Positions 661 to 7,542 of a stretch of 7,542 bases of DNA are shown here, piece by piece. Both the position numbers and the translations under genes were made by a program. Below the pieces are notes generated by a model that did not search any database, had not been told where the DNA came from, and saw only the letters and a list, made by a program, of their open reading frames with translations. The DNA is from Candidatus Tectimicrobiota bacterium (GTDB taxonomy: Bacteria; JACPSX01), in the NCBI GenBank assembly GCA_016193065.1, contig JACPSX010000030.1, positions 1 through 7,542 of the forward strand, given 5' to 3'. The stretch's first letter is position 1. Each line of letters starts with the position of its first letter.

Positions 661-1806
661 ATGTTTGAATTTCACGAGGAGCACGACCGCTCCGCCCGGA
701 TCGTGGTGGTGGGAGTCGGCGGCGGCGGGGGCAACGCGGTCAACACCATGATCGCGGCCGGGCTCAGCGGGGTCGATTTTGTCGCCGCCAACACGGATGC
801 TCAGGCCCTGAAGATCTCCCAGGCCCCGGTCGTCTTGCAGATGGGAGCGGAGTTGACCCGGGGTCTGGGCGCCGGGGCGGACCCGGAGGTCGGGCGCAGG
901 GCCGCCCTGGAGGATGCGGATAAGATCGCCGACTTCCTGCAGGGGGCCGATATGGTTTTCATCACCGGCGGGATGGGCGGAGGAACCGCCACGGGGGCTG
1001 CGCCGATCATCGCCCAGATCGCCAAGGAGCAAAAATCCCTGACCGTGGCGGTGGTCACCAAGCCGTTCCTCTTTGAAGGCAAGAAGCGCATGACCCGGGC
1101 TGAGGAAGGAGTGCGGGAGCTGCGCAACACCGTGGACACGCTGATCACGATTCCGAACCAGCGCCTGCTGAACGTGGTGGGACGGCAGACTCCCCTGACG
1201 GAGGCGTTCCGCATCGCCGACGATGTCTTGCGCCAGGCGGTCCAGGGGATCTCGGATCTCATCATGGTGCCGGGCCTCATCAACCTGGATTTCGCCGACG
1301 TGCAGACGATCATGGCGGAGATGGGGATGGCCCTCATGGGGAGCGGAATAGCCGGAGGTGAGAACCGGGCCGTCGAAGCCGCTCAGCGCGCCATTTCAAG
1401 TCCTCTTCTGGAGGAGTCTTCCATCGAAGGGGCCCGAGGGGTTCTCATCAACATCACGGGGGGGAGCGATCTTTCCCTGTACGAGGTGACCGAGGCCTCC
1501 TCTCTCATCCAGGAGGCAGCTCATGACGATGCCAACATCATCTTCGGCGCCGTCATCGATCCCGGCATGGAGGAGCAGGTGAGGGTGACCGTCATTGCCA
1601 CGGGTTTCGGGCTCCCGGAGCGGATGAACCAGACCACGCCCGAGAAATCCAGGGGGATATCGGAGCGGGAGAACCTGGAGATTCCTACCCACGTCCGGCA
1701 CAGGGTGCAGGTGAAAAAAGAAGTGAACAGCCGCAGTCCCGGGGTCATCCTGTACGACGATGAGGAACTGGACATCCCCACCTTCTTGAGGCGGCGTCCC
1801 GATTGA
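661..1806 (+). CDS. ftsZ: Cell division GTPase FtsZ
   Basis: FtsZ is the tubulin homologue that polymerises into the cytokinetic Z ring. The protein has 381 residues, a normal length. The G-box [11 protein letters not shown] is at residues 18-28 and NTDAQAL follows around 44-50. The tubulin signature loop is at 106-112 and the T7 loop NLDFADV at 208-214, with the GTPase-activating aspartates D210 and D213. Residues from about 318 to 365 form a short variable linker. The extreme C-terminus carries the conserved peptide LDIPTFLRR (370-378), which binds FtsA and other partners. Oddity: the signature loop reads GGGTATG, with A110 replacing the usual second glycine (GGGTGTG); see findings. The ATG start is supported by a perfect SD, and the MFEF N-terminus resembles that of Desulfobacterota FtsZ as I recall it. 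The stop is followed by a short repeat block rather than lpxC as in E. coli. Confidence 0.98.
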
Positions 1807-1825
1807 GGGGACAGGGCAAGGAAGC

Positions 1826-1846
1826 GATCAGCGGTCAGCGATCAGC
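1826..1846 (+). repeat. Three tandem GRTCAGC heptads in the ftsZ downstream spacer
   Basis: GATCAGC, GGTCAGC and GATCAGC follow one another without gaps. A short inverted repeat (AGCTT, two bases, AAGCT) lies at 1860-1871 in the same 74-base spacer. GATCAGC-type heptad strings resemble short dispersed intergenic repeats known from several bacterial genomes, but one window cannot show that this one is dispersed. If the TTG at 1803 were used as the start of the next gene, this block would be translated as low-complexity sequence, which argues against that start. Confidence 0.5.
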
Positions 1847-1880
1847 CGGACGGCAGGGCAGCTTGAAAGCTCAGAGAGCA

Positions 1881-3161
1881 ATGAATTCGCTTGCCCTGAT
1901 CTTTCCAAGGAGCCCGGGCTCAACGAGCGGCGATCGGGAGTGGAAGCCGTTCCTTGGGCACCTCAGGGTCCCTAAAGGCTGGCAGGTGTCCTGGCAGGGA
2001 ATCCCCGATCCTCCCCCTGCCGGCTTCATCCCGGAAATTGGCTCCCCTTCGATCCTCCTGTTCTGTGCCCGGTCGGAAGTGGATTACCCCTTCATCGTCC
2101 GGGTGCTGGATCTTCTGGGACTGGACCGCAGCCGCCGGAGTCATAAGAAGGGCCGCTCCAGTTCCCCCTGGGTGCTCGTCTATCTGAAAACACCGGGAAT
2201 TAATCCGGAACCCCTGGCCCCGTTCGTGGACGGATTTCTCCTGGGCGAGCCGGAGAAAATTCTTCCCCCCGTCTGCGTTGCTTTCCCCCGGAACCGGGAG
2301 TTCTGGACGTCGCCGGCGGCGATCGTTCCCGGGTTGTACGTTCCCCGAAACTATCGTGTCGAGTATACCCCTGCAGGCGTGATCCGGGGGATCAAGCCCC
2401 GTTCCCCGTTTTCTCAGCCGGTGCCGTATCGTTGCCCCTTGCCGGCAGCCTGGTGGCGCCGCCACTTTCCCGGTGCAAGCGGCAGCGGGGCGGTTGCGCG
2501 GGGGAAGAGAGCCGCACTGTGGCCCGTGGGCAGCAGCGCGAAGCTGCGCCGGCTTCTCGGCAGGCCTCCCGAAGAGGAGCATTACCTCTCGCAAGTGCCG
2601 GGCCTGCTTCAGCGCGGAGCTGAAAACTTTACCCTCCACTTCTTCGTGGGACTGCCGGGAGAAGGAGCCGAAGACCGGGAAGGGATCATTCGCCTCGTGA
2701 AGCGCCTGAGGCATGCGGTGTTCCAGTTCCGCCGCCCCACTCTCTTTAGCGGCCTGATTACTGTGAACCTGGTCAGCTTCTCCCCGAAGCCCTTTAGTCC
2801 CCTGCAGTGGGAAGGCATGTTCCCGCTTTCTCTCCTCCAACTCCAGATGAAGGCCCTAGTGTCCAAGTTGCGGGCAATCCCTGGAGTTCACGTAGTTCAC
2901 GATCTACCCAAGTGGGCTTACCTTTACGGAATCTTGGCCCGGGGAGACCGGCGCGCGGGGGAGTTCCTGCGGGCCCTGGCCCGCCGGGGAGGGGACTGGT
3001 GGTCTGCCTTGAGCGAGGTGAACCTCAACCCGGATTTTTACACGGTGCGTCAGCGCTCTCTGGAGGAGTCGCTGCCCTGGGACCACCTGGAGGGACCTGT
3101 CCCGCGGCAGAAGCTGGAAGATCAGGCGAGGGCCTGGCGAGAGCAAGCGGTTCGGTCTTAG
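1881..3161 (+). CDS. Degenerate B12-binding radical SAM-like protein lacking the CxxxCxxC motif
   Basis: A 426-residue protein whose ends resemble the B12-binding radical SAM family of TIGR03960 type; function unknown. Family-like blocks, numbered from the ATG at 1881: LDLLGLDRSRRSHKKG (about 77-92), INPEPLAPFVDGFLLGE (107-123) and PGLYVPRNY (150-158) from the N-terminal region. C-terminal blocks are LHFFVGLPGEGAEDREGI (252-269), FSPKPFSPLQWEGM (300-313), RGDRR (354-358), LNPDFY (382-387) and LPWDHLEG (398-405). Between about residues 170 and 214, where the 4Fe-4S site and first half of the barrel should lie, there is only a short Pro/Arg-rich stretch. The whole protein has three cysteines (62, 132, 185), none in a CxxxCxxC. 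It is therefore unlikely to cleave SAM. The frame is open throughout with GC-rich third positions, so it looks translated rather than freshly broken. Family members are usually about 600 residues, so this is a shortened paralogue, or a slowly decaying gene. The SD is weak; a TTG at 1803 overlapping the ftsZ stop is an alternative start. Confidence 0.72.
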   Translation: MNSLALIFPRSPGSTSGDREWKPFLGHLRVPKGWQVSWQGIPDPPPAGFIPEIGSPSILLFCARSEVDYPFIVRVLDLLGLDRSRRSHKKGRSSSPWVLVYLKTPGINPEPLAPFVDGFLLGEPEKILPPVCVAFPRNREFWTSPAAIVPGLYVPRNYRVEYTPAGVIRGIKPRSPFSQPVPYRCPLPAAWWRRHFPGASGSGAVARGKRAALWPVGSSAKLRRLLGRPPEEEHYLSQVPGLLQRGAENFTLHFFVGLPGEGAEDREGIIRLVKRLRHAVFQFRRPTLFSGLITVNLVSFSPKPFSPLQWEGMFPLSLLQLQMKALVSKLRAIPGVHVVHDLPKWAYLYGILARGDRRAGEFLRALARRGGDWWSALSEVNLNPDFYTVRQRSLEESLPWDHLEGPVPRQKLEDQARAWREQAVRS

Positions 3162-3188
3162 GCTTAGAGCTGAGTGCTAAGGGCTAAG
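3157..3188 (+). repeat. CTTAG/CTAAG inverted repeat at the end of the radical SAM-like gene
   Basis: Two CTTAG units (3157-3161 and 3163-3167) can pair with two CTAAG units (3177-3181 and 3184-3188) around a 9-base loop. This gives a stem of ten pairs with a small internal bulge. The left arm includes the TAG stop of the preceding gene. There is no T-run after it, so a classical intrinsic terminator is not supported. It may be a 3'-end stabilising hairpin or a copy of a dispersed short repeat. Confidence 0.5.
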
Positions 3189-3190
3189 GG

Positions 3191-3288: not shown

Positions 3289-4002
3289 ATGGTGGATCAG
3301 TCCCTGCAGGAAAGCCTGGCTCGGGTGCGGGAGAGAATCGAGCGGGCAGCCAGAACCTCCGGCCGCCGCCCTGAGAAAATCAAGCTTGTGGCAGTCACCA
3401 AAACCTTTCCGGTGGAGGTGATCCGGGAAGCTGTAGAACTGGGGGTTACCTGCTTCGGAGAAAACCGGGTGCAGGAAGCTCGGGAAAAGATTCCCGCCAT
3501 TGGCCGGGGGGTAGAGTGGCACCTGATCGGCACTCTGCAGCGCAACAAGGTGAAGTACATCTTCGATTTGTTTGATATGGTGCAGTCCCTGGATAGTTTC
3601 GCGCTCGGACAGGAGATCGAGGATCGGGGCCGGGCCCGGGGGAGGGTCATGCCTGTTCTGGTGGAGGTCAATGTGTCCGGGGAAGCGAGCAAGTCGGGCG
3701 TCCGCCCCGAAGAACTCCCCGAGTTGTTGAGAAGGCTCTCCGACTTTCGCCATTTGGCGGTTAAGGGACTCATGGCGATTCCCCCCCTGACGCCGAACCC
3801 GGAGGAGGCCCGCCCCTATTTTCGGGAGTTGCGCCGTCTGCGGGATCAGGTGGCGTCCGAAGGGATTCGGGGGATTGAGCTGGAAGAACTCTCCATGGGC
3901 ATGTCGGCGGATTTTGAAGTGGCCATTGCCGAGGGGGCAAGCATGGTCAGGATCGGCACGGCGATTTTCGGCGCCAGGAACCCTAAGGCGGAAAGGAATT
4001 AG
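3289..4002 (+). CDS. yggS: YggS/PLPBP family PLP homeostasis protein
   Basis: This single-domain PLP-binding protein has the alanine-racemase-like fold. Family members (YggS, YlmE, human PLPBP) buffer pyridoxal phosphate and affect amino acid and keto acid balance; no catalytic activity is established. The product has 237 residues from the ATG at 3289. The PLP lysine is K38 in LVAVTKTF. FGENRVQE (56-63), WHLIGTLQRNK (77-87), VEVNVSGEASKSG (125-137), and the phosphate-binding end SMGMSADFEVAI (202-213) with VRIGTAIFGAR are all intact. The ATG start is chosen because residues encoded from the upstream TTG at 3250 do not resemble the family; AGGA at 3276-3279 is a possible SD. proC begins three bases after the stop, the classical yggS-proC pairing. 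Confidence 0.95.
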   Translation: MVDQSLQESLARVRERIERAARTSGRRPEKIKLVAVTKTFPVEVIREAVELGVTCFGENRVQEAREKIPAIGRGVEWHLIGTLQRNKVKYIFDLFDMVQSLDSFALGQEIEDRGRARGRVMPVLVEVNVSGEASKSGVRPEELPELLRRLSDFRHLAVKGLMAIPPLTPNPEEARPYFRELRRLRDQVASEGIRGIELEELSMGMSADFEVAIAEGASMVRIGTAIFGARNPKAERN

Positions 4003-6123: not shown

Positions 6124-7162
6124 GCCCCTCGATTACCGCGACGGAGTCCTCTACTTTCTTGATCAGAGGCGTCTGCCCCAGGAAGAAACTTACGTGCCCT
6201 GCCGGACCGACCAGGAGGTGGCCGAAGCGATCCGCTCCATGATCGTGCGCGGTGCCCCGGCCATCGGGATTGCCGCAGCGTTTGGAATGGTCCTGGGGGC
6301 CCGCAGGCTCGCTGCCCGGACCTCCGGGGAACTTTTGGCGGGATTGGAGGGAGTGGCAGCGACACTCACCGCGACCCGCCCGACTGCCCGGAATCTTTTC
6401 TGGGGAGTCGAGCGGATGAGGGCCTGCGCGCTCCGCTGTAGAGACCGGGCAGTGGAGGATATCTGCAGAGAACTGGAGGCCGAGGCCCTCCGCGTTTGGG
6501 AGGAGGACATTGCCGGAAACCGGAAGATCGGCCAGGCCGGTCAGAAATTTCTTGGAGACGGCAGCGCCGTCCTTACCCATTGCAATGCGGGCGCTCTGGC
6601 CACGGGCGGCTACGGAACAGCAATTGGTGTCGTGCGGGCGGCTGTGGAGGCGGGGAAGAAACTCGTGGTCTACGTGGACGAAACTCGCCCCTTCCTGCAG
6701 GGGAGTCGCCTTACGGCCTGGGAGCTTCTCAAAGACGGCATCCCCTTGCGCTTGATCACGGACAGCATGGCGGGCCACTTGATGAAGCGGGGCGTGATCC
6801 AGGCCGTGATCGTCGGGGCCGACCGCATCGCCGCCAACGGGGACGTGGCCAACAAGATCGGCACCTACATGCTTGCCGTTCTGGCCAAGGAAAACGGCCT
6901 CCCCTTTTACGTCGCGGCTCCCTTTTCGACGATCGATCTCTCGGTTTCCAGCGGTGAGGAGATCCCGATTGAAGAGAGACCGGCCCGGGAGGTGACGCAT
7001 CTGGCCGGTGAGGCTTTGGCTCCGGAAGGGGTTGAGGTATGCAATCCGGCCTTTGACGTTACTCCGGCGGCCTACGTGACGGCCATGTTCACCGACCGGG
7101 GAGCTATTTTCCCCCCCTTTGCCGAGAACCTGGCGAGAGCTGCCGGGGAGAAGGTGGACTAG
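6116..7162 (+). CDS. mtnA: Methylthioribose-1-phosphate isomerase MtnA
   Basis: MtnA converts 5-methylthioribose 1-phosphate to 5-methylthioribulose 1-phosphate in methylthioadenosine salvage; in some anaerobes the same step feeds shunts that recycle MTA or 5'-deoxyadenosine by-products. The protein has 348 residues, normal for the family. LDQRRLPQEE is near the N-terminus, VRGAPAIGIAAAFG is around 44-57, and the catalytic cysteine is C156 in THCNAGALATGGYGTA. The catalytic aspartate is D236 in VGADRIAANGDVANKIGT. These residues favour MtnA over the related eIF2B-like and ribose-1,5-bisphosphate isomerase proteins. The start is taken as the ATG at 6116, overlapping yggU by 8 bases; a GTG at 6107 would add three residues. 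Neither start has a clear SD, so translation probably depends on coupling. Its TAG overlaps the opposing methionine synthase stop. Confidence 0.95.
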   Translation: MIKPLDYRDGVLYFLDQRRLPQEETYVPCRTDQEVAEAIRSMIVRGAPAIGIAAAFGMVLGARRLAARTSGELLAGLEGVAATLTATRPTARNLFWGVERMRACALRCRDRAVEDICRELEAEALRVWEEDIAGNRKIGQAGQKFLGDGSAVLTHCNAGALATGGYGTAIGVVRAAVEAGKKLVVYVDETRPFLQGSRLTAWELLKDGIPLRLITDSMAGHLMKRGVIQAVIVGADRIAANGDVANKIGTYMLAVLAKENGLPFYVAAPFSTIDLSVSSGEEIPIEERPAREVTHLAGEALAPEGVEVCNPAFDVTPAAYVTAMFTDRGAIFPPFAENLARAAGEKVD

Positions 7163-7542
7163 CCGCGCAGGCCGGCCCTTACTTCCCCAACGGCCTCCGC
7201 AATGACGCGGAGTTTGGCGACGGCCTCATCCACGGTGCGCGTCTTGAGGCCGCAGTCGGGATCCACGTAAACTCTCTCGGGGGGGATTACTTCCAGAATC
7301 TCCCGAATCCGCTTCGCCACCGTCTCTTTGTCCTCGATGACGTGGGAGTGCACGTCCACTACCCCGAACCCCATCTCCTTGGTGAAGGGATATTTGCGGA
7401 TCGCTTCCAGGAAATTTAACTGGGAGTTGGAGAATTCCAGATCGAGACGGTCCACGGGGATTTCCAGGATCTTGGGATAAATCTTCTCGAAGGTGCCGTA
7501 GCAGAGGTGGGTGATGGTTTTTGCCTTAAGCCCGTCGACGAC
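7159..7542 (-). CDS. Core MetE-type cobalamin-independent methionine synthase, C-terminal part (5' end outside window)
   Basis: The 127 visible residues match the zinc-dependent catalytic domain of MetE-like enzymes, which methylate homocysteine to methionine. All four expected zinc ligands are present: H12 and C14 in THLCYGTF, E36 in LEFSNS, and C97 in VDPDCGLKTR (numbered from the window edge). GVVDVHSHVIEDKETVAKRIREIL lies between them. The style (short loops, DVHS and PDCGLKTRT) resembles archaeal and anaerobic-bacterial stand-alone catalytic domains (core MetE, the Mes families) more than the long two-domain E. coli MetE. Those enzymes take methyl groups from a corrinoid protein or another non-folate donor. 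The upstream part is not visible, so full-length MetE is not excluded. The frame stays open to base 7542, so the GTG at 7455 is internal. The gene is convergent with mtnA; the stops overlap. Confidence 0.88.
   Translation of the reverse strand, partial: VVDGLKAKTITHLCYGTFEKIYPKILEIPVDRLDLEFSNSQLNFLEAIRKYPFTKEMGFGVVDVHSHVIEDKETVAKRIREILEVIPPERVYVDPDCGLKTRTVDEAVAKLRVIAEAVGEVRAGLRG

Follow-up and report, generated by a model that had tools for sequence, protein, structure and literature searches.

The stretch of DNA analysed here, which we call the window (7,542 nucleotides), carries on its forward strand an ordinary ftsZ gene (661-1806), followed by an open reading frame, termed X (1803-3161), and by yggS (3289-4002). 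The ancestral order of this cluster, ftsA-ftsZ-rSAM-pgeF-yggS-proC-yggT-divIVA-DUF167-mtnA, is present as a whole or in large part in several genomes of other phyla, and at the loci L060, L061 and L062, as well as at L077 from rSAM onwards, an intact enzyme of approximately 540-590 amino acids occupies the rSAM place. In the window this order is retained, except that X stands in for rSAM and pgeF is missing. X is the positional orthologue of the intact stand-alone TIGR03960-type enzyme of the ftsZ cluster. A first-pass annotation had suggested a possible link of X to cell division from its place directly behind ftsZ. In other phyla, however, intact enzymes stand at this very position within the same order of genes; the location is therefore inherited and is ruled out as evidence for a division role.

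A search between X and yggS revealed no remnant of pgeF above chance. The gene is found elsewhere in the same genome (L081 1501-2187, on contig C287; PF02578, 247 bits), next to an open reading frame which we take to encode an MFS-type transporter. The radical SAM gene itself is absent behind ftsZ in three other genomes, G047 (ftsZ followed by yggS), G137 (ftsZ, pgeF, yggS) and G178. The gene can therefore be lost, and at the ftsZ loci L084, L087 and L088, which represent three genomes, two of them also without pgeF there, this loss has apparently occurred repeatedly. Elsewhere in the window, the reverse strand carries at 7159-7542 the 3' end of an open reading frame, presumably of a cobalamin-independent methionine synthase-type protein. 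Two long antisense open reading frames on the same strand (1-1032, 344 codons; 1920-2840, 306 codons) show no evidence of being genes; such frames are common in GC-rich coding DNA.

On the forward strand, the frame of X is open from 1764 to 3158 and is closed by the stop codon at 3159-3161. Read from the ATG at 1881, as in the first-pass annotation, it comprises 426 codons without stops and encodes three cysteines, all of which our analysis confirms. Frame and stop were thus correctly assigned, but the start was probably not. A TTG at 1803 overlaps the stop codon of ftsZ (TTGA), and because the N-terminus of X aligns from there without gaps with the starts of intact family members, translation probably begins at this TTG and would yield a protein of 452 amino acids. 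Residue numbers of X are counted from the ATG at 1881, and blocks of conserved residues (1-35 and so on) from the TTG at 1803. Ribosome-binding sites are weak at both candidate starts. A promoter scan found no promoter-like site around X, terminators in the scan were at chance level, and an Rfam search of the window returned no matches. In shuffled sequence, a stop-free frame as long as X occurred in 0 of 2000 cases. Short repetitive intergenic stretches at 1826-1850 (GATCAGCGGTCAGCGATCAGCC) and 3169-3190 (GAGCTGAGTGCTAAGGGCTAAGG) flank X, and neither has an exact copy in 20 other sampled stretches of the same genome.

X belongs, in degenerate form, to the TIGR03960 family of B12-binding radical SAM proteins, to which the first-pass annotation had assigned it. 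It matches the TIGR03960 profile in two stretches (122.9 bits, E 1.4e-35) and does not reach the cut-off of 462.3 bits, just below which the intact relative L061 also scores (461.7). The Pfam domain Radical_SAM_N2 (PF19864) is detected with 34.8 bits (cut-off 29), covering only the last two thirds of the model, and Radical_SAM (PF04055) has no match in X at E<=1. A profile of 24 intact relatives matches residues 57-181 and 209-418, the latter with 204.5 bits, and its positions 220-342 are missing from X.

These matches define the layout of the protein. A probable N-terminal lead (1803-1880) is followed by the beginning of the N-terminal domain, which is eroded (1908-2048); two of five conserved residues are left in block 1-35 and none of 16 in the MSNLGFQ...CER.FLP region. 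The rest of the Radical_SAM_N2 or B12-like domain (N2, residues 57-181; 2049-2423) is more diverged than in any intact member. A linker of 27 residues (2424-2504) then stands in place of approximately 123 residues that carry CxxxCxxC and barrel strands 1-3 in the intact enzymes. Barrel strands 4-5 (C1, residues 209-290; 2505-2750) have also diverged past all intact members. Finally, barrel strand 6 and the family-specific C-terminal helical module (C2, residues 291-418; 2751-3134), with the motifs DLPKWA, RGDRR, NLNPDFY and LPWDHL, are as conserved as in the intact enzymes. N2, C1 and C2 have codon scores that are ordinary for the genome and higher than those of 99% of the wrong-frame windows; only the linker is without coding signal.

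The first-pass annotation had noted that the iron-sulphur motif and roughly half of the SAM barrel are absent, and this holds. CxxxCxxC, which is kept by every listed TIGR03960 relative, lies within the missing profile positions, and a search of all frames turned up no remnant of this core. Losses extend beyond the gap: at 101-102, GG has become YL, and LAPEAG is without its APE and reads WPVGSS. Structure prediction gives the same picture. The AlphaFold2 model of L061 (pLDDT 93.2) has six barrel strands (210-213, 255-259, 282-284, 308-314, 347-354 and 390-397), of which the model of X has the last three and lacks the first three. X is predicted to be folded (pLDDT 84.5, pTM 0.85, a confidence partly inherited from intact homologues in the alignment) except for residues 186-203 of the linker, which are predicted to be disordered. 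With CxxxCxxC and strands 1-3 gone and no remnant left, it is close to certain, as judged from sequence and model, that X has lost radical SAM chemistry. Since the cluster ligands are missing, X would be expected not to cleave SAM.

What is left of X is unevenly conserved. The first-pass annotation had matched both ends to family blocks, which is borne out for the C-terminus, where 10 of 11 conserved residues remain, but erosion of the first 80 residues goes much further than this implied. Relative to the intact members, the divergence of X is 1.37 in N2, 1.41 in C1 and 1.03 in C2. In N2 and C1, X is less conserved than all 34-35 intact members, whereas in C2 it is better conserved than 12 of the 35, and the divergence of C2 reached that of N2 or C1 in none of 300 column bootstraps. 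The terminal branch of X is the longest in the family tree (1.34), and FtsZ from the same contig sits on a short branch; the grouping of X with L063 (support 84) joins long branches and was set aside as evidence. Despite this deep divergence, the 452 codons of X contain neither a stop nor a frameshift. At highly conserved N2 and C1 sites, 11 of 34 residues are lost, and under simulated neutral change of that depth the frame stays free of stops with P of approximately 0.002 (11 losses) or 0.015 (8 losses), in a simulation that assumes a mutation model, starts from X itself and ignores indels and frameshifts. These tests speak against neutral decay over a long time and suggest that the C-terminal module remained under selection once catalysis had gone, in line with the signs of a selected frame noted in the first-pass annotation; they are also compatible with a fast-evolving enzyme whose core was lost recently.

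We also looked for relatives of X, within its own genome and beyond. No intact TIGR03960 protein over the cut-off, as considered in the first-pass annotation, was found in the own genome (2.9 Mb in 294 contigs, 86% complete), where one other weak radical-SAM-like match (17.8 bits) lies on contig C279. Among the genomes compared, this genome is the sole representative of its phylum. Sampling of many phyla gave no second copy of the gutted form; the open frames there are long, and where a short copy was examined (G031, G033), a contig end had cut it off. A scan of GTDB contigs with peptides of X gave as its only match an intact long-form enzyme from Desulfoluna. In one relative (L052, on contig C60 of G206), the matched region of the radical SAM gene was read through one TGA, possibly near the end of the gene. 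The orthologues found are intact and X alone is degenerate, which is one of the two signs, beside a dN/dS near 1, that the first-pass annotation had named as the marks of a pseudogene.

Three known systems can be compared with X. The stand-alone ftsZ-linked TIGR03960 form (rSAM_fuse_unch, approximately 540-600 amino acids) shares with it the place in the gene order, Radical_SAM_N2, barrel strands 4-6 and the family-specific C-terminal module (GDRR, NPxFYxxR, PWD). In contrast to this form, X lacks CxxxCxxC, barrel strands 1-3, the MSNLGFQ/CERxFLP block, GG and APE. Longer TIGR03960 members of approximately 800-900 amino acids at other loci, such as that of Desulfoluna limicola (L035), have an N2 domain, a barrel and a C-terminal module homologous to those of X. 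Unlike X, they have intact cysteines, are longer and, where examined, lie outside the ftsZ cluster. The closest solved fold is MgmA, the methyl-coenzyme M reductase glutamine methylase (PDB 9ccb), with a B12-like domain and a radical SAM barrel. It is the top Foldseek match of the intact relative and aligns with X over 266 residues (Z 14.2, rmsd 3.3). MgmA, however, is an active enzyme with complete barrel and cluster, and the match does not extend to the C-terminal module of X (from model residue 357). Our literature search found no paper that mentions TIGR03960 or gives the family a function, nothing relevant on TIGR03936/DUF2344 or on the ftsZ gene cluster, and no radical SAM pseudoenzyme resembling X.

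We modestly favour the view that X is a retained non-catalytic protein over recent decay, and put its chance at close to even. The alternative, in which the gene is in decay, is itself quite possible. It would mean that an enzyme already evolving fast under relaxed constraint recently lost its core by deletion, and that X is a relic, translated or not, caught before any stops and on its way to the full loss that other genomes show at this locus. The frame is clean on the longest branch of the family tree although about a third of the most conserved N2 and C1 residues are gone, which is improbable under neutrality. Moreover, N2 and C1 are eroded while C2 is not, with the kept residues rising toward the C-terminus, and the codon signal is normal. 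These observations speak for retention and against decay, and retention is further favoured by a predicted fold that includes everything except the linker and by a location shared with intact enzymes of other genomes. Other observations point to decay: CxxxCxxC is present in the other family copies found, G047, G137 and G178 no longer have the gene at the ftsZ locus and it is thus dispensable, pgeF has already left the cluster, the first 80 residues of X are almost unrecognisable, and its ribosome-binding sites are weak. Against retention it also counts that X is a single sequence whose gutted form recurs in no relative found, that its genome holds no intact paralogue for it to regulate as far as the 86% recovered shows, and that the confidence in its fold is in part borrowed.

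The sharp rise of conservation toward the C-terminus would also fit an internal start, in which case the C-terminal module would be the sole product and the sequence before it an untranslated remnant. We consider this unlikely, since the in-frame starts near the border of C1 and C2 lack a good ribosome-binding site (a GTG at 2718 is preceded by one weak GAGG) and the N2 half retains coding signal in the homologous frame. An artefact of assembly or binning, in which the barrel core was lost through misassembly or in a chimeric contig, is more improbable still. The genome is indeed a draft assembly in 294 contigs, with the window as one of them at 7.5 kb, and the composition of the linker is unusual, but a false join would not explain why N2 and C1 on either side are eroded as well, both sides share one frame, and the neighbouring genes stand in ancestral order on one strand.

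If X is indeed a retained non-enzyme, its history may be pictured as follows. X descends from a stand-alone B12-binding radical SAM enzyme of the TIGR03960 type in the ftsZ cluster. Sequence and model show that an internal deletion took the iron-sulphur motif and barrel strands 1-3, and because of this X should no longer be able to bind the cluster or cleave SAM. The cofactor-binding N-terminal half would have drifted after this loss, with selection continuing to act on the family-specific C-terminal module. X would still be made, its translation presumably coupled to that of ftsZ, and as the most likely mechanism the C-terminal module would bind the partner or substrate of the old enzyme without catalysis. 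Tentatively, and with less assurance than for retention as such, we picture a gutted radical SAM enzyme that persists as a stable protein without catalysis, in a cell where no active paralogue was found, and that binds its old partner through the conserved C-terminal module.

If X is only decaying, it is one more case of a dispensable enzyme leaving the ftsZ cluster. If, on the other hand, catalysis was dropped and the C-terminal module kept, this module would stand out as the part that is worth retaining, which in turn would lead to the binding partner of the enzyme.
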